Positions 18,748 through 43,050 of a stretch of DNA of 45,941 nucleotides are shown piece after piece. The stretch lies in NCBI GenBank assembly GCA_021163845.1, contig JAGGTH010000081.1:1-45941 (forward strand). Direction: 5' to 3'. Each line of letters begins with the position of its first letter. The first letter of the stretch is position 1. The notes under the pieces are model-generated. The model saw nothing but the letters and a program-made list of their open reading frames with translations, did no database searches and was not told the origin of the DNA. Origin of the DNA: Helicobacteraceae bacterium (GTDB taxonomy: Bacteria > Campylobacterota > Campylobacteria > Campylobacterales > Sulfurimonadaceae). The translations under genes were made by a program, and so were the position numbers.

Positions 18748-19956
18748 TTGATACTAGAAAACCTCAAAGATACACTCCAAGAAAAACTCAAAGAGCTCAA
18801 AAAAATCTTTGGCGTTGTTGATGAAAAAGAACCTATCTCTTTTGAACTCTCCGAATTTATGCAACAAACAGAAAGTGCACTTCAAAAACTCCCAACTAAC
18901 TACCGTGAACTCTTTGAGATCAAGGCTATAGAACATCATAACTTATTTGTAGGAAGACAAAAAGAGTTTGAACTCCTCAGCACCAACTTTACAGACTGGC
19001 AAAAAGAACGATTTGTCACCTGTGCGCTCATAGGAGAAAAAGGTGGAGGGTCTACATCCATACTCAACTATTTTCTCCATACTATCGAAGATATAGAGGT
19101 CATCAGACACGAACTCCATCAAAAGATCTATACAGAAAACTCCTATATGACTTTTGCCAGCACTCTTTTGGGGGCAAAAGATATCAATAATAATAAAGAA
19201 CTTATCGAGTTTGTCAATAACTCAGAACAACGACACATTGTCGTTTTAGAGAATCTCCAACATATGTTTTTAAAACGTGTCGATGGCTTTATAGCGATGA
19301 AAATGCTTTTTGAGTTGATGTCTTACACCACAAAGAAGATCTTTTGGATAGGTACCTTTACCCCTGCTTCTTGGAACTACTTGGATAAAACCATCTCTGC
19401 ATCCAACTACTTTACAAGTGAGATTACACTTGAACCCCTACCATACGAAACGATAAAAGAGATTATCTTAAGACACAAAGATTTTGGGCAATACGAAGTA
19501 GAGTATCTGGCAAGTGAACAAACCCAGCAAAGCAAAAGCTACAAAAAACTCAGCGATGAAAAAAAACAAGACTACCTCGAAGAACAACTCTTCAAACTGA
19601 TCCATAAACTCTCCAATGGCAATGTTAGCCTTGCAAAACTTTACTGGATGCGTGCGATCGAAGGGATAGAAGAAAACCATCTACGAGTGGAAGAGATAAG
19701 CGACCTTGATTACTCTTTTGTCAAAAACCTTTCGGAAAACTATCTTTTTACCTTACAAACACTCCTCGTACATGATGGACTGATTTTGCAAGATTTCTCT
19801 ATCGCTATCAACGAACCGCAATACACGTGCCGCAATATTTTAATGCCCATGCTCGAAAAAGGTTTACTGATCCAGCCAAACAAAAAATACAACATCAATC
19901 CTGTGATATACAAGCATATCTATGACTATCTTGCATCCAAAAATTTTATTCACTAG
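18748..19956 (+). CDS. AAA/STAND-like ATP-binding-fold protein with degenerate P-loop
   Basis: The 402-residue protein opens with a charged helix (1-50) and then has a NLFVGRQKEFELL box (66-78) like that preceding the ATPase core of Orc1/STAND proteins. The P-loop position reads GEKGGGST (96-103): glycines and the final threonine are kept, but the invariant lysine is a serine. A Walker B-like HIVVLEN (163-169), a sensor-like IFWIGTFTPASW (198-209) and LEPLPYETIKEIIL follow. The C-terminal 70 residues look like a winged helix. Nucleotide binding may be lost or altered. The start is TTG at 18748 with AGGGA 7 bases upstream. The MscS gene begins 15 bases downstream, so the two are almost certainly one operon; a regulatory or gating role is inference. 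Confidence 0.65.
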   Translation: MILENLKDTLQEKLKELKKIFGVVDEKEPISFELSEFMQQTESALQKLPTNYRELFEIKAIEHHNLFVGRQKEFELLSTNFTDWQKERFVTCALIGEKGGGSTSILNYFLHTIEDIEVIRHELHQKIYTENSYMTFASTLLGAKDINNNKELIEFVNNSEQRHIVVLENLQHMFLKRVDGFIAMKMLFELMSYTTKKIFWIGTFTPASWNYLDKTISASNYFTSEITLEPLPYETIKEIILRHKDFGQYEVEYLASEQTQQSKSYKKLSDEKKQDYLEEQLFKLIHKLSNGNVSLAKLYWMRAIEGIEENHLRVEEISDLDYSFVKNLSENYLFTLQTLLVHDGLILQDFSIAINEPQYTCRNILMPMLEKGLLIQPNKKYNINPVIYKHIYDYLASKNFIH

Positions 19957-19971
19957 AGAGGAATCTTTTTT

Positions 19972-20850
19972 ATGAAACTACTTTTTATACTATCTCTTCT
20001 TTGTCTCCAAACACTCTTGGCCATCGAGATACCAGAAACACTTAAAACACCAGAGACTGCGAGTCCACTTGAGTTTTTTTCTATCATCTCTTGGTCCAAT
20101 ATCTTATGGACGATTTTTCTCTTTACAATCAGCTACTTCTTTATGCAAATACTTACAAAAACACTCATCTTTTTTGCAGAAAAAAGCTCCAGATTGCGTA
20201 TCACTATCAAAAGTCTCATCCCAATTTTACGCATCGGTCTTTGGACCATTATCATTGTACTCATCATCAAAGTGATCTACAATCCTCCTGTTGAGATGTT
20301 GATGACCGCACTTGCATCCGTAGCTATTGCTGTGGGTTTTGCAGCACAAGATCTTCTCAAAAATATCTTTGGTGGTTTAATGCTCCTTTTTGACCGCCCT
20401 TTTAAAGTGGGTGATAAAATAGGTCTAGGAGAATACTACGGAGAGGTAATCAACATAGGACTGAGAACTACGCGTATCGTAACTGATGATGACTCTGTGA
20501 TCGTAATTCCAAATATGGACCTGATGAACCGCTCGGTCTCCAACACAAATGCCGGAGAGCTCTACTGCCAAGTGGTAGCGGATATAGCGCTTCCTATCGA
20601 TATAGACACACAAAGAGTACGTAAGATAGCTATAGAAGCAGCTCAAGTATCAAAATATATCTATCTCAACAAGCCAATTGTCGTACTTTTTAGCAATAAG
20701 ATCTATCAAAGAAAGTCTTTTTTGAACATGCAAATCAAAGCCTACGTAATGGATATTCGCTATGAATGTGCCTTCAAAAGTGATATGACGGAGATCGTTC
20801 TTCGAGAACTACTCAAGCAGAAGATTTTGGATAAAGGAGATCTTGAGTAA
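19972..20850 (+). CDS. MscS-family mechanosensitive channel
   Basis: The 292-residue protein has a signal-like hydrophobic N-terminus (1-18), two membrane helices (about 43-60 and 83-102) and the pore-lining TM3 signature (ALASVAIAVGFAAQDLLKNIFGG, 113-135). The DRPFKVGDKI start of the beta domain follows, then NMDLMNRSVSNT. MscS channels open under membrane tension and release solutes on osmotic downshock. The size is close to E. coli MscS (286). The C-terminal cytoplasmic domain seems complete. The ATG at 19972 has GAGAGGAA about 8 bases upstream. It lies directly behind the degenerate ATPase gene, an unusual partner for a channel normally encoded alone. Confidence 0.9.
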   Translation: MKLLFILSLLCLQTLLAIEIPETLKTPETASPLEFFSIISWSNILWTIFLFTISYFFMQILTKTLIFFAEKSSRLRITIKSLIPILRIGLWTIIIVLIIKVIYNPPVEMLMTALASVAIAVGFAAQDLLKNIFGGLMLLFDRPFKVGDKIGLGEYYGEVINIGLRTTRIVTDDDSVIVIPNMDLMNRSVSNTNAGELYCQVVADIALPIDIDTQRVRKIAIEAAQVSKYIYLNKPIVVLFSNKIYQRKSFLNMQIKAYVMDIRYECAFKSDMTEIVLRELLKQKILDKGDLE

Positions 20851-20869: not shown

Positions 20870-21316
20870 TTATTTTCTATGTTTTTTCACTGCTGCGTAG
20901 GCTTCATTGAGAGCTTGAGTCTTTTGCTCTGCAAATTTCAGCATCTCCTCTGGTAGGTCTTTGCTCGCTATAGAATCATAATGGTACTCTTTTATAAGTC
21001 TTCTGTAGTTTGCTTTTATTACATCCCAAGGATCACTCTCTTTGGATTCTAAGACTTTGTAGTACTTATCCAAGTCATTTGTCGCTTGATTCGTGCTGTT
21101 GTTATGATATTTGTATCTATTAGCTTGGCTATACTTTTGTGGGTTAATGATAGAAAGTCCTATCACTAAAAAAAAGTTAAATGGGAAAAAAAGTATCGCA
21201 GGGGCAAAAATAAGCAACAATATTCCGATGATAATGCTTCCAAAACAAAATCCAAGCCATAAAACCTCCAAAAAGATACCCAAGGCAATGAAAGCAAGTC
21301 CGAGGAGTGTTCTCAT
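20870..21316 (-). CDS. Membrane-anchored J-domain-like protein with HYD in place of HPD
   Basis: The 148-residue protein has two or three closely spaced hydrophobic helices in residues 1-58, a polar linker, and a C-terminal J-like domain (84-148). The J-like domain contains YYKVLESKE, then DPWDVIKANYRRLIKEYHYDS and QALNEAYAAVKKHR. The loop motif that in J-proteins is HPD and stimulates DnaK reads HYD (112-114), so DnaK stimulation may be impaired. Known membrane J-like proteins with altered motifs act as tethers or decoys. Start ATG at 21316; the ribosome binding site is weak, and the gene begins 8 bases after the preceding gene, so it is probably translated from the shared message. Confidence 0.65.
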   Translation of the reverse strand: MRTLLGLAFIALGIFLEVLWLGFCFGSIIIGILLLIFAPAILFFPFNFFLVIGLSIINPQKYSQANRYKYHNNSTNQATNDLDKYYKVLESKESDPWDVIKANYRRLIKEYHYDSIASKDLPEEMLKFAEQKTQALNEAYAAVKKHRK

Positions 21317-31878: not shown

Positions 31879-31941
31879 CAGACTGAAGTCTGTGTTACGA
31901 GATATTACGAGAGTAATCTCTTCGTGACACAAAGATCAGTC
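31879..31941. repeat. Compound palindrome between convergent uspA-like and tamB genes
   Basis: A small perfect hairpin (ACAGAC-TGAA-GTCTGT, 31878-31893) sits inside the left arm of a much larger imperfect palindrome. The outer arms GACTGA/TCAGTC (31881-31886 with 31936-31941), middle arms GTGTTACG/CGTGACAC and inner arms ATTAC/GTAAT surround a GAGA loop. It follows TTTTTT on the plus side. The right end overlaps the tamB stop codon. It may be a bidirectional terminator or a copy of a dispersed palindromic repeat. Confidence 0.5.
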
Positions 31942-34551
31942 ATCAAGTGAAAAATCTTTCACGTACAAAATACTTACCCCCTGCCCCGTTTCATCTACAT
32001 CCACATCCAAACGAATATTGCGAGAAAGACTATATTGTAAGATTATACTCGAGACCGTATCGTTTTTGTACACTATACGAAAATCTTTATCCAGTTTTGC
32101 CCCGATCTCATAGCCTAGAGTTCCCTCTTCATTAGTGAGAATATTGAGCGTATCTACTTTGATCATATCACTTTGATTGAGCATCTCCTTGAGTCCACTC
32201 CCAAGCAAAAGAGCGCTTACAGAGCCCTTTGTATCTCCTGTACTAGAAGTATCAAAAACAGAAGATGCTCTCTCACCAAAGAGAATATAAGAGAGGATAT
32301 CCTCTTGACTCATCGCAGGTTTTGAAGAGAAAATAATGACAGGATCTTCCATTGTATGGGTGATATATATCTCGATGTCGATCCCATCGAGGGTGTAATG
32401 ATGAAGCTTAAGATTGAGCTGTGGGTTGATCCGCTCTGTACCCTTAAAAGTAAGCTCACTTTTGTCAAATTCAAAGATTCTATCACTTACATTTACCTCT
32501 CCACGCTCTATAGTTATGCCACCAAGTATCACCAAAGCCCCGCCACTTTCTTGAGAGAGTTGAAGTACAGGAACAAATTCAAGTTCAATGTTTTCATTGT
32601 TGTATTTGATAGGTTTTTTTGCATTGATCTTGATATCTATCTCTCGTTGTGTTTGCACCTCTTCTTTGACATCTTGAAGGATGATAATATCTTTGTCTGT
32701 GATCTTATAATCCTCTTTTGGCATATAAGAGATCACCCCATCTAAGATACTTACCTCCCCTTTTACCTTTTGCTTGCCTCCAAACTCTATATCTACTTCT
32801 AGATCCATTGCAAGAGTAAGATTTGCATCTTTGGAGTTATAGATAAAGCTATCACTTTGCAGATGAAGTTGTGCTTTTTTTTCTAAGGGTGAGATGCGAC
32901 CTGTAAGTAAAAGCTCATTATTGATAAAAACGCTTTCTAAGAGGATCTCTTGATCGCTTTGTATAGAGATTTTAGATGCTTTGGTGGCGAATATCTTCTG
33001 ATCTTGTAAAAACATCGTATAGCTATCGATAAAGAGTTGTTTGTTTTGATAAGAAAGACTCAAAGAGACATTCTCCCCTTGATAGATACTCTCTTCATCA
33101 AGCTGGATCTTATACCAAGGGATATCAATTTTACTTTTGATAAGGAGTTCATGAGCAAAGAGGAGTGTTGTGGTACTTTGAAGCTTTGCATCATAACGTA
33201 ACTCTTGCTCCTCTTGAATGATACCTAGTTCTAAAAGAAACGCATGGAGTGATTCTAGCTCTGAGTAGATCGTCAGCTCTTTTTTCTCCATATCTCCTAG
33301 AAGATGAAAATGATTTGAAGCGATACGTCCTCCACCCTCTATACTCTTTTGCTCTCTTGTAAGTTGTAGTTTTAAAAGCAAGGAGTCTAGAGAGAGTTTT
33401 GTCTTATCCTCTTTGTGTTCGACAAAAAGCTCTAGTTTTTGCATCTTTGGATCAACATCTTGAAGCTCTATCATTGCTTGGAGTGTTTGCATATTTTCTT
33501 GGAGCTTAAGCAGACCACTCGCATGAACATATGGGCTTTGTACTTGGTAACTGTAGTTTTGATAATCTGTGGAATGAACTTGGAGTCGATACTCCTGCAT
33601 AAACATCTCTAGATCAAGATGCTTTGTATCGCCTGCTACATCCAGAACTATCTTTTGGGCAAAAAGATCCTCTACATTTACTTCCATCTTACTGATAAAA
33701 GCCCCTTTGGTATCTACACTCCCCCTTTGAGACACCTCAATACGATGCTCTTGAACCAAGAGCGCAGAACTTGAATCAACAAATATCTTCTCTTGTGCAA
33801 AGGGATATTCTATCCTTATAGAACTCTCTTGGAGTTTGATATCTTCATTCTCTTTCAAAGAGATAGTATCAAGCTGCGTTTGAAGTTTTACACCCTCTTG
33901 ATCAAGGAGTAGATCGATAGTAAACGCACGAGGCAGATTTGCAAAACTTGCAAGATACTTCTCTTGCAAACTCTTTTCAAGTTTTACCTTTGTTTTGGCA
34001 CGCACTTGTGAGTCTTGTATAACTCCTCTCGCTTCTAGCTTACCGTATTGTGTACTGAGGTCTAGTAGAAAAGCTTCTACATCCAAAGCCCCGTCAAAGT
34101 GAAGTGCATTTGCATCAAGATGTAAGCCTATCTTCTCTCCTTGTATACTCAGCTCGATATTCTTTAAAGAGAGCTTTTGGAGAAAAAAAGCGGGGATCGC
34201 TTGGGATATAGTCGTATTAGACTCAGACGCAGGAAGCTTGGAGGGATCCAAAACAAGCCCATCGACAAAGAGATATTCTATCTTTGGTGTTGGGCGTAAA
34301 AGCTTTAGTAGGTTATATTTCAGCTTTATTCGTTTGACTTGCAGCCCATCTCCATAGCTTAGTTCATCGATCTCTACACCATAAAAAAGACTCCCTTCGA
34401 TTTTGGTGTATTTTATCCCAAACTCTTTATGATACTTTTGTGCAAGATATGGCACGACATCTTGATGAAAAAGGAGAAAAAAAGCACTGATGACAACTGC
34501 AATACTCAAGAGAAAAAGGGTGCGTAAAAGAAGGAGAAAATAAGCTATCAA
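31936..34551 (-). CDS. tamB: TamB-like inner-membrane protein of the translocation and assembly module
   Basis: This 871-residue protein has an N-terminal signal anchor (about residues 5-27), a long beta-rich body, and the C-terminal TamB/DUF490 domain. That domain includes GGITIERGEVNVSDRIFEF, FKGTERINPQLNLKL and SQEDILSYILFGERAS. TamB spans the periplasm and with TamA supports outer-membrane protein assembly and probably phospholipid transport. It is shorter than E. coli TamB (1259). TTG start at 34551 overlaps the tamA stop (TTGA), with GGAGA about 8 bases upstream, indicating translational coupling. It is the last gene of the ilv-lpxD-tam run. Confidence 0.88.
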   Translation of the reverse strand: MIAYFLLLLRTLFLLSIAVVISAFFLLFHQDVVPYLAQKYHKEFGIKYTKIEGSLFYGVEIDELSYGDGLQVKRIKLKYNLLKLLRPTPKIEYLFVDGLVLDPSKLPASESNTTISQAIPAFFLQKLSLKNIELSIQGEKIGLHLDANALHFDGALDVEAFLLDLSTQYGKLEARGVIQDSQVRAKTKVKLEKSLQEKYLASFANLPRAFTIDLLLDQEGVKLQTQLDTISLKENEDIKLQESSIRIEYPFAQEKIFVDSSSALLVQEHRIEVSQRGSVDTKGAFISKMEVNVEDLFAQKIVLDVAGDTKHLDLEMFMQEYRLQVHSTDYQNYSYQVQSPYVHASGLLKLQENMQTLQAMIELQDVDPKMQKLELFVEHKEDKTKLSLDSLLLKLQLTREQKSIEGGGRIASNHFHLLGDMEKKELTIYSELESLHAFLLELGIIQEEQELRYDAKLQSTTTLLFAHELLIKSKIDIPWYKIQLDEESIYQGENVSLSLSYQNKQLFIDSYTMFLQDQKIFATKASKISIQSDQEILLESVFINNELLLTGRISPLEKKAQLHLQSDSFIYNSKDANLTLAMDLEVDIEFGGKQKVKGEVSILDGVISYMPKEDYKITDKDIIILQDVKEEVQTQREIDIKINAKKPIKYNNENIELEFVPVLQLSQESGGALVILGGITIERGEVNVSDRIFEFDKSELTFKGTERINPQLNLKLHHYTLDGIDIEIYITHTMEDPVIIFSSKPAMSQEDILSYILFGERASSVFDTSSTGDTKGSVSALLLGSGLKEMLNQSDMIKVDTLNILTNEEGTLGYEIGAKLDKDFRIVYKNDTVSSIILQYSLSRNIRLDVDVDETGQGVSILYVKDFSLDD

Positions 34552-36248
34552 AAGAGTTCTCCTATATGAAAGTGGATCGCATACTGTTTTGATGGAGCAT
34601 CTGTATCTACTCCAAAATCAAGTGCTATAGGACCAATAGGCGTTTTATAACGAAGCCCAAAACCAACACTCGTATATGCTTTGTTGTACTCTACAATCGC
34701 ATTATCCCCTATAAAGCTCACGTCACTAAACACCATGCCGCGAACATTCCCATAGATACCAAAACGCCACTCAAGAGTGGACTCAAAAACAGAATAAGAA
34801 CCCTTTGGATCCCCCTGAGCATTGAGCTCACCGAGCTCTCTATATCCATATGCACGATTGGAATACATCCCACCTGTATAAAATCTATACGATGCAGGCA
34901 ATTCCCCCTCATAAAGTTTCAAAGAGCCATATTTTGATTTGAGACCCAAGATATTCGAACCAAAAGGAAAAAGTACTGCTCCGCTAAGCTTATACTTATA
35001 GTAACTCGCATCTGAGATCTCACTTTTGAGTGAACCCATCATCTCGGCACTCAGAAAATAGCCTCGGCTTGGATCAAGAAGTTTGTCTCGCGTGTCATAG
35101 TTCCACTCTAGCTTCGGGGAGAGTACAAAAAGTGAGCTATGGGGAAACAGGACAAGATCATTACTCCTATAGGTTTTAGCATTATCAAAAACAAGGCTCT
35201 CTTTAAAGCTATGCAAACCTTTTTGTTGTTTGAGATAGATACTTCCAAAAACACTTTGTTCCTCAAAACCAATAAAATCTTCATTCTTAAAACCAACTTC
35301 CAAACCACTATAGTTTCTATCGATCAATGGCACATCATAATTGAGCTTGATCGTTTGACGAATCTGTGTGACACGTGTACTCAGACTTAGTGTCTTGAGA
35401 TCCCCATAAAAGTTTCGATGTTTGATTCCCAAAAGTGCCATAGCCCCCTCATCACTGCTTATCCCTAGACCTGCTTGAAAACGTAAAGGTTTTTCATTTT
35501 CATCGATACTCACTTTGATATTGACACGACTTTGATTGACATCTACATCCGTATCTATACTCACTTTGGATATCCCCTCATGTCGATAGATGTTTTTATA
35601 ACTTTGAGAAATACTCTCATAAGAAAAAAGTGCCCCCTCCTCGATGGGGAGTAAAGAGGAGACAATCGCAGCATCGATACTCTCACTCCCGCCTACATCC
35701 AAAGTTCCAAAATAGCACAGATCGTTCGTAGCGATATCATAGAGGATATACGCCTCATTGGTATCGATATCTATCCATGTTTTTGCATCTATATTTGGAT
35801 TACAATAGCTCTCATTTCCATAAAATGCGGCTATATCCTTTTTGCTTTGTGTAAAGAGGTCTGATTCAAAACGATCCCCCTTTTCAAAAGGGATCACCTC
35901 TGAGAGATCAAACTCAGAGAGAATCACGAGATTTTTTATACGCACAGCATCATTTTCTTCAATACCAATAATAAGTTTATTATTTTCCTCTATGTAAGAG
36001 AGCTTTGCATTAAAATAGCCCTTGGTTTTATAATAGTTTCGAAGTGTAAGAAGCGTTAGTTCAATAGTTTTAGGATTGATTTGTGGTTCATCTTTATAGA
36101 ACTCATAAAGATAAGGTTTGTGCAGTCCAAGAGATTTATACAATTCTCTTGTATCAATGTTTTTATTTCCCTCGAACAAAAGTTCAAGCGAATCAGCAAA
36201 AAGGAGTGTAGACAATAAAAAATAAAAAAATATTTTTTTAGACAACAC
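34548..36248 (-). CDS. tamA: TamA/BamA-family outer-membrane protein with POTRA domains
   Basis: The 566-residue precursor has a signal peptide (about 1-19, FFYFLLSTLLFADS), about 230 residues of periplasmic POTRA-type alpha/beta repeats, and a C-terminal 16-strand Omp85 barrel. The barrel contains DPSRGYFLS and YKTPIGPIALDFGVD and ends in HFHIGELF with a terminal phenylalanine. Linkage to tamB argues for TamA rather than BamA. The start is GTG at 36248 (AGGGG only 2 bases upstream) or the following TTG at 36245 (5 bases, better spaced); the signal peptide is preserved in either case. Confidence 0.88.
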   Translation of the reverse strand: MLSKKIFFYFLLSTLLFADSLELLFEGNKNIDTRELYKSLGLHKPYLYEFYKDEPQINPKTIELTLLTLRNYYKTKGYFNAKLSYIEENNKLIIGIEENDAVRIKNLVILSEFDLSEVIPFEKGDRFESDLFTQSKKDIAAFYGNESYCNPNIDAKTWIDIDTNEAYILYDIATNDLCYFGTLDVGGSESIDAAIVSSLLPIEEGALFSYESISQSYKNIYRHEGISKVSIDTDVDVNQSRVNIKVSIDENEKPLRFQAGLGISSDEGAMALLGIKHRNFYGDLKTLSLSTRVTQIRQTIKLNYDVPLIDRNYSGLEVGFKNEDFIGFEEQSVFGSIYLKQQKGLHSFKESLVFDNAKTYRSNDLVLFPHSSLFVLSPKLEWNYDTRDKLLDPSRGYFLSAEMMGSLKSEISDASYYKYKLSGAVLFPFGSNILGLKSKYGSLKLYEGELPASYRFYTGGMYSNRAYGYRELGELNAQGDPKGSYSVFESTLEWRFGIYGNVRGMVFSDVSFIGDNAIVEYNKAYTSVGFGLRYKTPIGPIALDFGVDTDAPSKQYAIHFHIGELF

Positions 36249-37440: not shown

Positions 37441-37923
37441 TTATCTCTCGAGTGCTACAGCACCGCTACGTACTATCTCTTTTGGATTGTAGCGTTTGAC
37501 CATACTCAAAAAGTTATCCACTCTCTTTGGCTCATCTGCAACCATCGTGATGATCATATCATCGCTCACGTTGACGATCTTGCCATTATACGCATCACAA
37601 AGCGCTGCGATATCACTTACATTTTCTGTGATAGGAAACTTCACAAGTGCCATCTCTTTTTCTACAAGATCACAATGCTCATACACTCTTAAAACTGGGA
37701 TCAGTTTGTGCAGCTGTTTTGTGATCTGTTCTATCACACGTACAGAGCCTGATGTAACGATAGTGAGTCTTGAGTACTTACTATCAGGAATCGGTGCTAC
37801 TGTAAGGGATGTGATGTTATAACCACGTCCAGAGAAAAGGTCAGTGATGCGTGAGAGTACACTCGCTTCATTGACAACGATAACTGAAACAACTCTTCTT
37901 TCGCTATTTTCAATTTCAGTCAT
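37441..37923 (-). CDS. ilvH: Acetolactate synthase small (regulatory) subunit
   Basis: This 160-residue protein has an N-terminal ACT domain (about 9-80, VVNEASVLSRITDLFSGRGYNITSLTVAP) and a C-terminal regulatory domain. It binds valine and gives feedback control of the IlvI catalytic subunit. The size is typical. The ATG at 37923 overlaps the last base of the ilvI stop (TAATG), with AAGGAG about 9 bases upstream, so the two subunits are translated in a coupled way. Confidence 0.95.
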   Translation of the reverse strand: MTEIENSERRVVSVIVVNEASVLSRITDLFSGRGYNITSLTVAPIPDSKYSRLTIVTSGSVRVIEQITKQLHKLIPVLRVYEHCDLVEKEMALVKFPITENVSDIAALCDAYNGKIVNVSDDMIITMVADEPKRVDNFLSMVKRYNPKEIVRSGAVALER

Positions 37924-39620
37924 TATTTTTTCTCCTTCTTCTCTAGTAACATCATGTTAAATAAACTTCCTCCCGATGGAACCATCGGCATAACGTTTTC
38001 AAGTCGCTCAACTACAACGTCGATAAATGCAACAATATTTTTCTCTACAGCATCTTTGAGTGCCGCATCGAACTCCTCTTTTGTCGTAACACGGTAGCCT
38101 ATCCCACCAAATGCTTCTGCAAGCTTGACAAAGTCAGGCTGAACACTCAGATCTGTCTCAGAGTGACGCTTGTCATAAAAGAGTGTTTGCCACTGGCGAA
38201 CCATCCCAAGATAATTATTATTGAGAATAATATTGATAACTGGGAGTTTTTTCTCTACCGCTGTCATCAACTCTTGGCAGTTCATAAGGATCGAACCATC
38301 TCCTGTAAAGTTGATACTTATCTTATCAGGAGTAGCAGATTTGACACCCATCGCTGCTGGAAAACCAAATCCCATCGTTCCAAGTCCACCGGAACTTGTC
38401 CATTGGCGTGGACGTGTGAATGGATAAAACTGTGCAGCCCACATCTGGTGCTGTCCAACATCTGTAGTGATATTTGCATCATCACCAAGAAGCTCTCCAA
38501 CACGCTTGACAACCCACTGAGGCTTGATACGATCTGTATCTTCATGAAATGTGAGTGGATGTAACTCATCAAAGTTTGCGATCGTCTCTCTCCACGTCTC
38601 ATAGCGTGATGGATTGATATTGCCAACATGTGCAAGCATATCTTTGACAACACTGCGTACATCCCCAACGATAGGAAAGTCAGCATTGACAAGCTTAGAG
38701 ATACTTGCAGGATCGATATCTACGTGGATAACACCCGCATTTTTTGCAAATTCAGAGAGCTTTCCAGTTACACGGTCATCAAAACGCGCACCAAGAGCGA
38801 TCACGAGGTCTGTCTCACTCATCGCCATATTTGCCGCGTAACTTCCGTGCATCCCAAGCATAGAGATAAGATGTGGATCGTCATAACTAAGAACTCCACG
38901 TGCCATAAAGGTCTCAACAGCAGGGATCTGTGTTTTTGCAACAAGTTCACGCACCTCATACGATGCATTGGAGTTGATAATACCACCACCAAGGTAAAAG
39001 AGTGGACGCTTCGCTTTTGCGATCGCCTCCATCGCTTTTTTCACTTGACGAGGATTTCCTTTGGTATGTGGCTTATACGTTTCAAGCTCTACAGGTTTTG
39101 AATAATCAAAAGTCGCGATCTGTGCTGTAACATCTTTTGGAATATCCACATGTACAGGACCTGGGCGACCCGAAGCTGCAATATAAAATGCCTCTTTTAA
39201 AACACGCGCAAGATCAGAAGCATCTGTGACAAGATAGTTATGTTTTGTACATGAGCGGCTGATCCCAACTGCATCGATCTCTTGAAACGCGTCTGTTCCG
39301 ATAAGACTCATAGGAACCTGTCCACTGATCACGACAAGAGGGATAGAATCCATATACGCATCTGCTAGACCTGTTACCGCATTGGTAAAGCCAGGCCCAC
39401 TTGTAATCATCGCTACACCTACTTTTCCGCTCGCTTTTGCGTAACCCTCTGCCGCATGGACAGCTGCTTGCTCGTGGCGAGTAAGTATGTGGTGAAAATC
39501 AGTCTGTTTGTAGATCTCATCATAGACATTCATAATTGCTCCGCCTGGGTAGCCAAACACAGTGTCTACACCCTCTGCAATCAAAGCTTCAATGACCATT
39601 TGTGCGCCACTTATCTGCAT
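37923..39620 (-). CDS. ilvI: Acetolactate synthase large (catalytic) subunit
   Basis: This enzyme condenses pyruvate with pyruvate or 2-oxobutyrate in valine, leucine and isoleucine synthesis. The 565-residue protein has the thiamine-PP fold: catalytic Glu50 in TRHEQAAVHAAEGYA, the SGPG loop, the FAD-binding central domain and the GDGS...NN thiamine-PP motif (GDGSILMNCQELMTA). ATG at 39620 with AGGAG 8 bases upstream. ilvH follows with a one-base overlap; ilvA, which supplies 2-oxobutyrate, is upstream on the same strand. No leader peptide of an attenuator type is seen. Confidence 0.96.
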   Translation of the reverse strand: MQISGAQMVIEALIAEGVDTVFGYPGGAIMNVYDEIYKQTDFHHILTRHEQAAVHAAEGYAKASGKVGVAMITSGPGFTNAVTGLADAYMDSIPLVVISGQVPMSLIGTDAFQEIDAVGISRSCTKHNYLVTDASDLARVLKEAFYIAASGRPGPVHVDIPKDVTAQIATFDYSKPVELETYKPHTKGNPRQVKKAMEAIAKAKRPLFYLGGGIINSNASYEVRELVAKTQIPAVETFMARGVLSYDDPHLISMLGMHGSYAANMAMSETDLVIALGARFDDRVTGKLSEFAKNAGVIHVDIDPASISKLVNADFPIVGDVRSVVKDMLAHVGNINPSRYETWRETIANFDELHPLTFHEDTDRIKPQWVVKRVGELLGDDANITTDVGQHQMWAAQFYPFTRPRQWTSSGGLGTMGFGFPAAMGVKSATPDKISINFTGDGSILMNCQELMTAVEKKLPVINIILNNNYLGMVRQWQTLFYDKRHSETDLSVQPDFVKLAEAFGGIGYRVTTKEEFDAALKDAVEKNIVAFIDVVVERLENVMPMVPSGGSLFNMMLLEKKEKK

Positions 39621-39711: not shown

Positions 39712-41841
39712 TTAATCTAATATACTCTTTACTATCATGCTTGGTTTCCACATCTTTAAAACCCCGTGAGGCATAGTCTCGAGCTTGAGTTTAGAGTCGG
39801 GATATTCTTGTATAAAAAGCTCATAAAAGCTCATGATCTGATCTTGCAGACCAAACTGTAAAACAAACTTTTTGATCCCATTTTCTATTGTTTTCATCTC
39901 TTGTTTTTCTCGCATCGCATTTTCAAGTTGGACCATATAGCACCATGCAATAAGAGTCGCTATGTATCTGTATTTTGAGCTGATCTGCTTGTAGGCTACA
40001 AGTGTTTTTTCGATCCCCTCTATATTTCCCTGCGTTGCATAAAAATAGGCATCGACCACATCCTCATTCCACACTTTTTGAAGCTTCATCCCATCAGGGG
40101 TGTCGAGGAGCTCTTCATGAGTATCAAGAAGTGTGTATGCTAGTACGCTGTCTTTACTCTCTATTGCATTAAAGAACTTTTGCTTGAGTTCTATAAAGCT
40201 TATGGTGTCGTTTGCTTCTTGTGTAAAATCTGGAAAAAGTTTAAGAATGCGTAAAAGCTTGAGTGCCAAATGTGTTTCATCTGCACTCAGGTAACGATTT
40301 GCTTGGATGTAGAGAGAATCCGCGTAAGCTACAAGGGCATCATAATCGCTAAACTCTTTTAAGAAGGGATGTTGCTTGACTAAGCTAAAAACGATCACAA
40401 AATCTTTTTGTGCCAAAGATGTACGAAATCGTTTATATACACTTGCTTGACTCATAAGCTCTTGTATAAGCTTCGTTTTTTCACTTACCCCACGATAAGG
40501 GCTCAGTACATCCCTTGCTTTTTCGATCCCCTCTTTTGGATCAAGTGCATACTTGTGTGCCAGAGCCAAAGACTTTTTCCAGTTACTCTCCAAACTCGCG
40601 TAGAGTTGTGACTTTTTATACAGAGGGTTACTATTTGCCATAGAATACGCCAAAGCGATCTTGTTTTGCTCTACAAGTGCAATGAACTTAGGAAACTCCT
40701 TATAGCTTGTAAAAAGCTCTTGGGCTGTCTTCTTTTTAGCGCCTATTTCCATAAAAGGTTCTAGGAGTTTTTGTGCACTTTTTGTATCACCACTTTCTAA
40801 GAGTTCTCTTGCTTTTTCCAAGCTCTTTTCCCAAATATCTCCAAAAAGATTATAGCTCTCTTTGTAACGCAAGAGTGGATTGGTGTGCAGTGATCTCTCT
40901 ATCTTGGCATAGTTTTGTTCTTGAAGATATTTTCGATTTTCCTCTTCACCATAAAAGAGTTCATAGACCAAAACCTCACCACTATCCGTAGCTATCAAGA
41001 GTTGTTCTGTGCGTTCATCGAATGCTAATGTAGTGATGCTCGCACCAAGCTTTATATATTTTCTTGAAACAAGCTGGTAGCTTTTCATATCAAAAACGAT
41101 CACATAACCAAGCTTGGTTGCTACAAATAAAAGAGAGTATTTTTCATAATAAAGAACATCGCTCACATCATCATGGATCCCTTGGAGTCTACACAAGATA
41201 CGATCATGTTTCACATCCCAGATGATCGCACTATTTTGCTTATCAATACTTAGCAGTCGCCCTTTATCCAAGAACAAGACTTTCATCACCGCTTTACTAT
41301 GTCCTTTGAGCTTATGCTTTGGTGTCATAAGAGCCAAATGAAATAAAGAGATCGTTTTGTCATAACTCGCAGTTGCGACCCAATCACCATTGGATGAAAA
41401 GGCGATAGCATTGATGGTGTCAGCGTGGTGAGGGAGTGTAAGGGCGAGTTGTCCACTTTGTATATCGATCACAAAAGTGCGTCCATCTTCGCCACCTGAG
41501 AACATATATTTTTGTCGCGGATCGATCGCCACACAAGAGACCTCCCCTTGATGTCGTTGCACACGGGCGATCGCCTTTTTGGCTTTTGTATCATAGAGTC
41601 TGGATTCTCTTGCATCAGAACTGATCGTGGCAAAATAGGTACCATCAGCACTAAAGGCTATCGCTTGGGATGTAGCGTTGGAATGCTCTATATTGACCTT
41701 AAACCCTCCAAGGGTCTCCATGCTCTTTGGATCAACATAGCGTATCGTCGTCTGAGCATCGACTAAAAGCCAACGCTTCTCATCGAGAAACTCACACAAA
41801 AGGATCGGCTTTGAAAAATTTGTAATGGTACTTGCTTGCAC
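39712..41841 (-). CDS. WD40 beta-propeller plus alpha-solenoid protein
   Basis: The 709-residue cytoplasmic protein has no signal peptide. Residues 1-300 form a WD40-like propeller of about seven blades; clear units end in DGRTFVIDIQS, YDKTISLFHL and NSAIIWDVKH. Residues 334-672 are all-helical and built from four units of about 85 residues, aligned on Trp337, Trp421, Tyr506 and Trp591, each with a helix like WxKSLxxA, an ALxLL helix and a KFxxxIExKDxxLAYSLL helix. This propeller-then-solenoid order is like that of eukaryotic coat and nuclear pore scaffold proteins, but I claim no homology. GTG start at 41841 with GGGAG 9 bases upstream, 6 bases after ilvA. Function unknown. Confidence 0.7.
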   Translation of the reverse strand: MQASTITNFSKPILLCEFLDEKRWLLVDAQTTIRYVDPKSMETLGGFKVNIEHSNATSQAIAFSADGTYFATISSDARESRLYDTKAKKAIARVQRHQGEVSCVAIDPRQKYMFSGGEDGRTFVIDIQSGQLALTLPHHADTINAIAFSSNGDWVATASYDKTISLFHLALMTPKHKLKGHSKAVMKVLFLDKGRLLSIDKQNSAIIWDVKHDRILCRLQGIHDDVSDVLYYEKYSLLFVATKLGYVIVFDMKSYQLVSRKYIKLGASITTLAFDERTEQLLIATDSGEVLVYELFYGEEENRKYLQEQNYAKIERSLHTNPLLRYKESYNLFGDIWEKSLEKARELLESGDTKSAQKLLEPFMEIGAKKKTAQELFTSYKEFPKFIALVEQNKIALAYSMANSNPLYKKSQLYASLESNWKKSLALAHKYALDPKEGIEKARDVLSPYRGVSEKTKLIQELMSQASVYKRFRTSLAQKDFVIVFSLVKQHPFLKEFSDYDALVAYADSLYIQANRYLSADETHLALKLLRILKLFPDFTQEANDTISFIELKQKFFNAIESKDSVLAYTLLDTHEELLDTPDGMKLQKVWNEDVVDAYFYATQGNIEGIEKTLVAYKQISSKYRYIATLIAWCYMVQLENAMREKQEMKTIENGIKKFVLQFGLQDQIMSFYELFIQEYPDSKLKLETMPHGVLKMWKPSMIVKSILD

Positions 41842-41847
41842 GAAGCA

Positions 41848-43050
41848 CTACTCCCTTAAATAACCCTCTTTTTGCAAGAGGGAACGGATACGCTCTTGGT
41901 GTTCTTCCCCTTTTGTCTCCATATGCACGGTCACATTTGCATCTCCATAATCAAGAGAGATAGAGGTTCTATCATAAGCGATATGGACAATATTGGCATC
42001 AAGATCTTTAAGTATCTCTGTAAAACGCATAAGTGAACCTGGCTTGTCTACAAGGGTCACTGTAAGCTTCATCTTTCTTCCAGATTTGAGCAAACCTTTT
42101 TCGATGATGACTGAGAGAAGCGTTACATCCATATTTCCACCACTGAGCACGATCGCTATCTTTTTACCTTTGAGATGTGCAAGCTTATCGTGTAAAAGAG
42201 CCGCAACACCTACAGCACCCGCACCCTCTACCACAAGCTTTTGCTTCTCGAGTAAAAATAAAATTGCACTCGCGATCTCTGCATCATCTACACTAATAAA
42301 GCGATCGACACACTCTATAATATGTGGAAGTGTAATGTTTGATGTATCACGTACAGCGATCCCATCGGCAATAGTGCGCACTTGTGTGGAGTCTATCGGT
42401 GTCTTTGCCTCATAGGAGTTTTTGAGCGCTGGGGCACCTGTCGCACTCACAGCGATCACCTCTATCTTTGGGTTGAGCGCTTTAATGGCACTTGCCATTC
42501 CAGAGATCAGACCACCGCCACCAGCTGGGATCACCACAGCATCAAGATCTGCACATGAGTCTAGGATCTCTAGAGCGATCGTGCCCTGCCCTGCGATCAC
42601 CGCTTCATCTTCAAAAGGGTGCACAAAAGTCAAAGAATTCTTCGCACCATAATCAAGGGCATACGCATACGCTTCATCATAGTTACTCCCCGCCAAGATC
42701 ACCTCTGCACCAAAATGCTTGACACCGTTGATCTTTGTAAGAGGAGTAGAATCAGGCATCACGATCACCGCGCGAATGCCAAACTTGAGTGCGGACATCG
42801 CTACACCTTGCGCATGGTTGCCTGCACTCGCTGCTACTACGCCACATGCACGTTGTGCATCACTCAGACTTGCTATTTTGTTATAAGCTCCACGGATCTT
42901 AAACGCACCCGTAACTTGAAGATTCTCTTTTTTGAGATACACGTCACTCCCGCTGAGCTGGCTAAGATGAGGCGCGTAAGAGAAAGGTGTATTAACAACT
43001 ACGCCAGAGATTCTCTCTTTTGCTTCATATATTTTTTGTAAATCTACCAA
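41848..43050 (-). CDS. ilvA: Threonine ammonia-lyase (threonine deaminase) with ACT domain
   Basis: IlvA turns threonine into 2-oxobutyrate and ammonia, the first step to isoleucine. The 400-residue PLP enzyme has Lys51 in LQVTGAFKIRGAYNK, the AASAGNHAQG and PAGGGGLISG phosphate-binding loops, and a single C-terminal ACT domain (about 325-400, LTVTLVDKPGSLMRFTEIL). That single-ACT layout fits the short form, not the longer E. coli IlvA. TTG start at 43050 with AAGG about 9 bases upstream. ilvI-ilvH lie downstream, past the propeller-solenoid gene. Confidence 0.94.
   Translation of the reverse strand: MVDLQKIYEAKERISGVVVNTPFSYAPHLSQLSGSDVYLKKENLQVTGAFKIRGAYNKIASLSDAQRACGVVAASAGNHAQGVAMSALKFGIRAVIVMPDSTPLTKINGVKHFGAEVILAGSNYDEAYAYALDYGAKNSLTFVHPFEDEAVIAGQGTIALEILDSCADLDAVVIPAGGGGLISGMASAIKALNPKIEVIAVSATGAPALKNSYEAKTPIDSTQVRTIADGIAVRDTSNITLPHIIECVDRFISVDDAEIASAILFLLEKQKLVVEGAGAVGVAALLHDKLAHLKGKKIAIVLSGGNMDVTLLSVIIEKGLLKSGRKMKLTVTLVDKPGSLMRFTEILKDLDANIVHIAYDRTSISLDYGDANVTVHMETKGEEHQERIRSLLQKEGYLRE

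Follow-up and report, generated by a model that had tools for sequence, protein, structure and literature searches.

A Campylobacterota protein family with a predicted WD40 propeller followed by a regular helical repeat domain

Proteins in which one or more beta-propellers precede an alpha-solenoid include the IFT-A subunits, clathrin, the COPI/II coats and the nucleoporins, and an update on prokaryotic coat-like proteins reportedly appeared in 2023. Santarella-Mellwig et al. (2010; PMC2799638) described the MC architecture as an N-terminal beta-propeller of six to eight blades followed by C-terminal stacked pairs of alpha-helices, and reported it for eukaryotes and, among bacteria, for the PVC group only, in agreement with the initial annotation of the locus treated here, which called it uncommon in bacteria. 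The order of propeller, then solenoid, was used as an argument for a special link between PVC bacteria and the eukaryotic endomembrane system. WD40 proteins are, according to PMC5587647, widespread in Proteobacteria with few representatives per proteome.

The window of the current study, i.e., the whole stretch of DNA that was analysed, comprises 45,941 nucleotides of contig JAGGTH010000081.1 (GenBank assembly GCA_021163845.1) from a member of the Sulfurimonadaceae. The host is a sulfur-oxidising bacterium. One gene of the window, whose GTG start codon lies 6 nt 3' of ilvA, encodes a 709-aa protein that is predicted to consist of a WD40 propeller and four helical repeats of 84/85 residues. The features are as follows.

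39712 to 41841, minus strand: whole gene, 709 aa; open reading frame with full-length homologues
40960 to 41829, minus strand: seven-bladed WD40 propeller, residues 5-294 (Pfam, AlphaFold2, structural superposition)
40654 to 40905, minus strand: predicted helical repeat unit 1, residues 313-396, anchor W337 (repeat, profile, model)
40399 to 40653, minus strand: predicted helical repeat unit 2, residues 397-481, anchor W421 (repeat, profile, model)
40144 to 40398, minus strand: predicted helical repeat unit 3, residues 482-566, anchor Y506 (repeat, profile, model)
39892 to 40143, minus strand: predicted helical repeat unit 4, residues 567-650, anchor W591 (repeat, profile, model)
39715 to 39891, minus strand: predicted C-terminal cap, residues 651-709, with the conserved tail W698-D709 at its end (tail conservation, model)
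41848 to 43050, minus strand: ilvA (threonine dehydratase), immediate upstream neighbour, named by reading
37923 to 39620, minus strand: ilvI (acetolactate synthase large subunit), downstream neighbour, named by reading

No membrane span is evident in the 709-aa protein, whose highest 19-residue hydropathy mean is 1.18, and no sign of the membrane association suggested earlier was seen; basic and acidic residues are nearly balanced (92 and 91). Three further features of the window were recognised by eye. A 148-aa reading frame (20870-21316, minus strand) encodes hydrophobic segments and, at its C-terminal end, a J-domain-like stretch whose HPD motif seemingly reads HYD; a gene for a 402-aa protein with a glycine-rich stretch resembling a P-loop is immediately followed by one for an MscS-type channel (18748-20850, plus strand); and two overlapping adjacent genes resemble a TamB/TamA pair (31936-36248, minus strand).

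The N-terminal half was assigned to the WD40 repeats on the basis of PF00400 (76.3 bits; cut-off, 27), seven predicted blades and structural superposition. Among the matches listed (25 of 45), all Pfam families above their cut-offs are propeller models (PF00400, PF12894, PF23410, PF23411), so that no catalytic domain was seen among these matches. The AlphaFold2 model places 28 strands in this half, which by our own assignment would form seven four-stranded blades, the N-terminal strand closing blade 7. Superposition of the propeller on WD40 chains gave Z values of about 30, e.g., for that of the Thermomonospora curvata protein PkwA (5yzv; Z 30.4, 23% identity, rmsd of 2.7 over 285 residues). 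PkwA shares the propeller but is a serine/threonine-protein kinase fusion, and we know of no solenoid of the present kind in it. The best conserved loops lie on the top face around blades 3-4 (conservation of 0.60 to 0.77), and their conserved residues are partly structural positions of any WD40 domain; over all propeller loops, the conservation of top and bottom did not differ significantly (p 0.065). A PADLOC match to HEAT-ARM_XIII (9.3e-13) was rejected as a label for the helical part, its best stretch being residues 18-208 of the propeller.

The helical half contains a regular repeat. The anchor residues W337, W421, Y506 and W591 follow one another at spacings of 84, 85 and 85, exactly as the initial annotation had stated, and in a 114-row alignment W337 and W421 are each conserved in 113 rows, W591 in 108 and Y506 in 90, with F at the latter position in a further 15. 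In an ungapped self-comparison of the profile (residues 316-709), the strongest lags were 170, 84 and 42 (z 5.3, 5.2 and 3.9), and the signal at lag 42 indicates that each unit is made of two hairpins of about 42 residues. Without gaps, lag 85 gave no signal (z -0.4) although two of the anchor spacings are 85, because the pairs spaced by 85 residues, units 2-3 and 3-4, are more divergent. A simpler test put lag 170 past the 99% shuffle level and lags 84 and 42 barely past the 95% level. The best gapped off-diagonal self-alignment placed residues 317-581 on 401-675 with a score of 146, whereas 12 column shuffles reached no more than 55 and the reversed profile 78. Profiles of the single units matched each other in hhalign with E values of 5.9e-16 (units 1-2), 4.1e-12 (1-3), 1.8e-12 (1-4), 4.8e-10 (2-3), 1.6e-12 (2-4) and 1.5e-6 (3-4); the controls, i.e., the end cap and the WD40 part, gave no significant match to the units (E 0.047 to 0.77). 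On these profiles, the C-terminal cap is not a fifth repeat. The four units that had been placed at residues 334-672 are thus confirmed as repeats, but are better cut at 313-396, 397-481, 482-566 and 567-650.

The period was also found in five groups of relatives that were aligned apart, with top lags among 84-87 and 168-171 and at least one of them above the shuffle maximum in each group. Lag 84 reached z 7.5 in the fliI-linked group and z 4.5 both in the polA-linked group and in a three-member ilv-linked group; the ispG/c74 group showed lags 87 (z 4.1) and 84 (z 3.8), and the yibQ-dprA group lag 170 (z 4.4), with lag 84 (z 3.1) below the shuffle maximum of 3.4. The 114-row alignment shares rows with the polA-linked group (4 of its 5) and with the three-member ilv group, and none with the other three. 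When 81 members were searched with a model of the unit (i-E below 0.01), 29 displayed four units, 21 three, 23 two, 7 one and 1 none, so that recognition of the units is difficult in many of the more distant proteins.

The repeat resembles, and differs from, that of TPR proteins, with which it shares helical hairpins and, in some members, weak Pfam TPR matches; unlike in TPR proteins, the 34-residue period is absent from the profile self-comparison (lag 34, z -0.96) and the helices are longer and uneven. Kinesin light chain TPRs measure about 42 residues. The helical half of the window protein alone met no Pfam cut-off (TPR_14, 15.6 bits; cut-off, 23.5), the comparison with the cut-offs of the TPR models being confined to this protein, and NCBIfam returned one sub-threshold match (FimV_Cterm, 15.4 bits; cut-off, 30.65; residues 341-362). 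Weak Pfam matches in 76 members were led by TPR_6 (18 members at E up to 0.1, best 3.1e-4), followed by ANAPC3 (14), DASH_Duo1 (11), TPR_8 (10; best E 1e-4, in a single member), YfdX (10) and others.

Structure prediction agrees with the earlier reading of a propeller followed by alpha-helical repeats. AlphaFold2, run on the whole protein with 76 sequences, gave a mean pLDDT of 90.0 (pTM 0.60) and helices at model residues 298-678 (protein numbers are higher by one). The region of 39826-40842, to which the repeats had been ascribed, does hold helical repeats, but the helical part is larger and includes a helix at about residues 299-307 as well as the cap (651-709). Since matches of the whole model in Foldseek and VIA were filled by the propeller, the helical part was folded and searched alone (mean pLDDT 92.9, pTM 0.66). 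It displayed a similar series of helices four times over (10, 5, 22, 7-12 and 22-25 residues long), i.e., the similar pattern per unit that had been read from the sequence. The low pTM values leave curvature and domain placement unsure. Against the PDB, the helical part had no significant match, with a best Foldseek E of 0.33 and a best VIA Z of 7.8, which lies within the range that this tool calls common for helical repeats. The 50 Foldseek matches listed were mostly spliceosomal HAT chains, TPR chains (SPINDLY, P58IPK, OGT, LGN, APC/C) and IFT-A chains, and a kinesin light chain-type chain (4y6c) matched weakly at E 0.31. We read the helical part as a putative TPR-like solenoid with a longer unit, in which the stacking of helix pairs is predicted to be continuous through the C-terminal half.

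An unlikely alternative is that the C-terminal half, instead of forming one continuous solenoid, consists of several small helical bundles in a row or of repeats in an irregular array. The low pTM of the helical part despite its high pLDDT, the poor global superposition on TPR and HAT chains, and the alternation of long (22-25 residues) and short (5-12 residues) helices would be consistent with this, but the regular 84/42-residue period runs through the helical region, and the weak structural matches are mostly TPR, HAT and other helical-repeat chains, just as TPR leads the weak Pfam matches. A docking-peptide reading of the conserved tail was rejected, as the tail blocks reached pLDDT 91 when the helical part was folded on its own; a structural cap is therefore the simpler reading.

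The family to which the gene belongs is distributed across Campylobacterota in several putative subfamilies, as judged from searches of Campylobacterota genomes and plasmid records, and the conservation across the phylum that the initial annotation wanted to see checked was found. The window protein matched in 87 of 99 relatives. A broad full-length profile had matches in 146 of 298 Campylobacterota genomes, including weak ones, with best E values as poor as about 1e-3, that probably reflect WD40 repeats alone; the count for the helical part alone, 43 of 150 genomes in a different and smaller sample, is safer. Each of the 76 helical-domain rows falls within an open frame of 561-805 aa, long enough to accommodate a propeller as well; in two rows a single internal TAG is present. 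For closer study, 81 members were chosen, not drawn at random (537 to 794 aa, median 709). In every one of them, the family profile matched 150 or more helical positions, and in 80 it also covered 120 or more of the 281 propeller positions, the exception being L168 with 79. Two members of 564-568 aa (L187:5433-7127 and L188:5396-7102), in which the match ends at profile position 552-556, lack the last repeat and the cap, while a 615-aa member matches the profile to 614 and a 646-aa member to 669. Three family members per genome occur in G000, G089 and G117, G000 being the genome of the window, with further members on its contigs C38 and C17; no family member was found in G012, which belongs to the same genus and whose genome is a single contig. 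The whole protein matched 193 plasmid records, none of which covers 80% of it in one place; the 15 matches listed lie within query residues 1-360, and the helical part had no match among the plasmid records. The open PMC literature, searched by titles and abstract openings, contained no paper on a propeller-solenoid family of this kind. A regular repeat domain in a conserved propeller-solenoid family is thus real and, by title and abstract opening in that literature, undescribed.

Both modules, the repeat, their joint occurrence, their conservation, the lack of an evident membrane span and the absence of the gene from some relatives were established by computation. Two interaction modules in one chain, no catalytic domain among the listed matches, the paralogues and the patchy absence point to an adaptor, and the product is rather probably a soluble, dispensable cytoplasmic scaffold for protein interactions, of which we infer the binding role and the location. 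The seven-bladed propeller would present one binding face and the four double-hairpin repeats, i.e., eight TPR-like but longer hairpins of about 42 residues, a second, extended one, so that two or more partners could be held together, and the paralogous subfamilies within one genome may serve different partners. A scaffold, as the initial annotation had proposed in broader terms, is accordingly a plausible role, and the gene neighbours, which vary among subfamilies, name no pathway.

Alternatively, the protein might associate with two-component signalling or comparable sensory complexes, which we regard as improbable. Among the neighbours of the 81 members, the most frequent cluster is of the response-regulator/sensor type (read by eye), but the 22 neighbour slots that it fills are a raw count, the genomes of such bacteria are rich in these genes, and the window gene itself is flanked directly by ilvA and ilvI.

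Still less probable is membrane assembly as a coat-like scaffold, in the way proposed for clathrin, COPII, the nucleoporins and the MC-like proteins of planctomycetes. In its favour, both domains occur in the order that defines the architecture in PMC2799638, the propeller and the helical part fitting that definition by prediction, and up to three members are present per genome. The proteins of Planctomycetes-Verrucomicrobia likewise combine a propeller with stacked helix pairs in several copies per bacterial genome; the modules of the window protein measure roughly 32 + 45 kDa, as estimated from length, versus the 48 + 76 kDa given for gp4978 (PMC2799638). The propeller models of VPS8 (36.2 bits; cut-off, 28.9) and Vps41 (34.2 bits; cut-off, 33) also pass their Pfam cut-offs, though narrowly, and carry little weight because general propeller models outscore them. 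VPS8 and Vps41 are coat-like tethering proteins. Against a coat, the helical part has no significant fold match to any coat solenoid, no membrane segment was found in the window protein, G012 from the same genus lacks the family, and Campylobacterota are, to our knowledge, not known for internal compartments. Among the matches listed by Foldseek and VIA, no coat or nucleoporin family stood out: clathrin (6wcj_A) reached a Foldseek E of 2.6, and nuclear-pore chains appeared in VIA as pieces of 46-49 residues, or in the case of 7r5k with 181 residues at an rmsd of 12.8. IFT-A chains connect the protein to the eukaryotic WD40 plus solenoid proteins by weak Foldseek matches (E 0.46-1.8), but unlike these it has a single propeller, a double-hairpin unit of 84 residues and no significant solenoid match. 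The comparison with coats and the nuclear pore in the initial annotation hence stands for the domain order, the only feature shown as shared. In contrast to the PVC proteins, the host belongs to Campylobacterota and no sign of a membrane link was seen; the likeness described here is one of predicted domain architecture. The MC architecture does not make the family a coat, and a second, independent bacterial MC-like lineage, in which the Campylobacterota paralogues would self-assemble on the cytoplasmic membrane or at the poles with their own class of repeat, is equally doubtful.

The position between ilvA and ilvI is conserved in the genus. In 80 related loci, mostly from Sulfurimonas (the contig of L098/L099 was counted twice), ilvA lies directly upstream in 76 (three are cut at the locus end and one is without), with a gap of at most 10 nt in 72 of these, including eight overlaps, and ilvI lies within 2.5 kb downstream in 73, is absent there in 4 and lies beyond the evidence in 3. 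The ilvA neighbourhood recurs in more distant members, e.g., L032, L034 and L035. Other subfamilies adjoin polA, yibQ-dprA, fliI-folE or ispG; apart from yibQ, a PF04748 protein (2.8e-60 for L155), the names of the context genes were read by eye from the sequences. In a tree of the members, the contexts yibQ-dprA (10 members), fliI-folE (10), polA (5) and c74-75 (3) each occupy one side of a supported branch, while ilv (19, including the window), ispG (8) and PPIase/regulator (4) need 3, 2 and 2 changes, and 23 members have other contexts. A YibQ-type membrane protein is encoded directly upstream in L063, L066, L151, L152, L153, L154, L155, L156, L160 and L069, with dprA downstream where the locus is uncut and mostly minD further upstream (L069 is cut after the propeller gene); a link of this subfamily to envelope or division genes is possible.

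The gene is not kept wherever ilvA and ilvI are kept. The two enzyme genes are 124 nt apart in G012, and in G047 they are separated by a 4.3-kb gap holding porin-like, response-regulator and kinase-like genes (by eye). In G003, an incomplete, partial assembly, a degraded copy (L200; G003:C9:3300-4500) with fragments matching residues 41-184 and 626-709 is left between ilvI and ilvA. The gene can therefore be missing while ilvA and ilvI stay. An accessory or regulatory protein of branched-chain amino acid synthesis (IlvA/IlvI), although suggested by the conserved neighbourhood, which extends to distant members, is highly improbable in view of the varying contexts of the other subfamilies and of the three genomes without an intact copy between the enzyme genes. 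Gene context was rejected as a functional guide because the subfamilies have different contexts, and the caution of the initial annotation that the ilvA-ilvI position gives no functional clue was right.

The likely role of a binding scaffold is an ordinary one, and the interest of the family lies in a domain order that was once used to single out PVC bacteria. Its predicted presence in Campylobacterota, with up to three copies per genome, none in some genomes and no sign of a membrane link, suggests that this order may arise or persist without compartments. The Campylobacterota family would thus be a genetically simple place for testing what propeller-solenoid proteins do.
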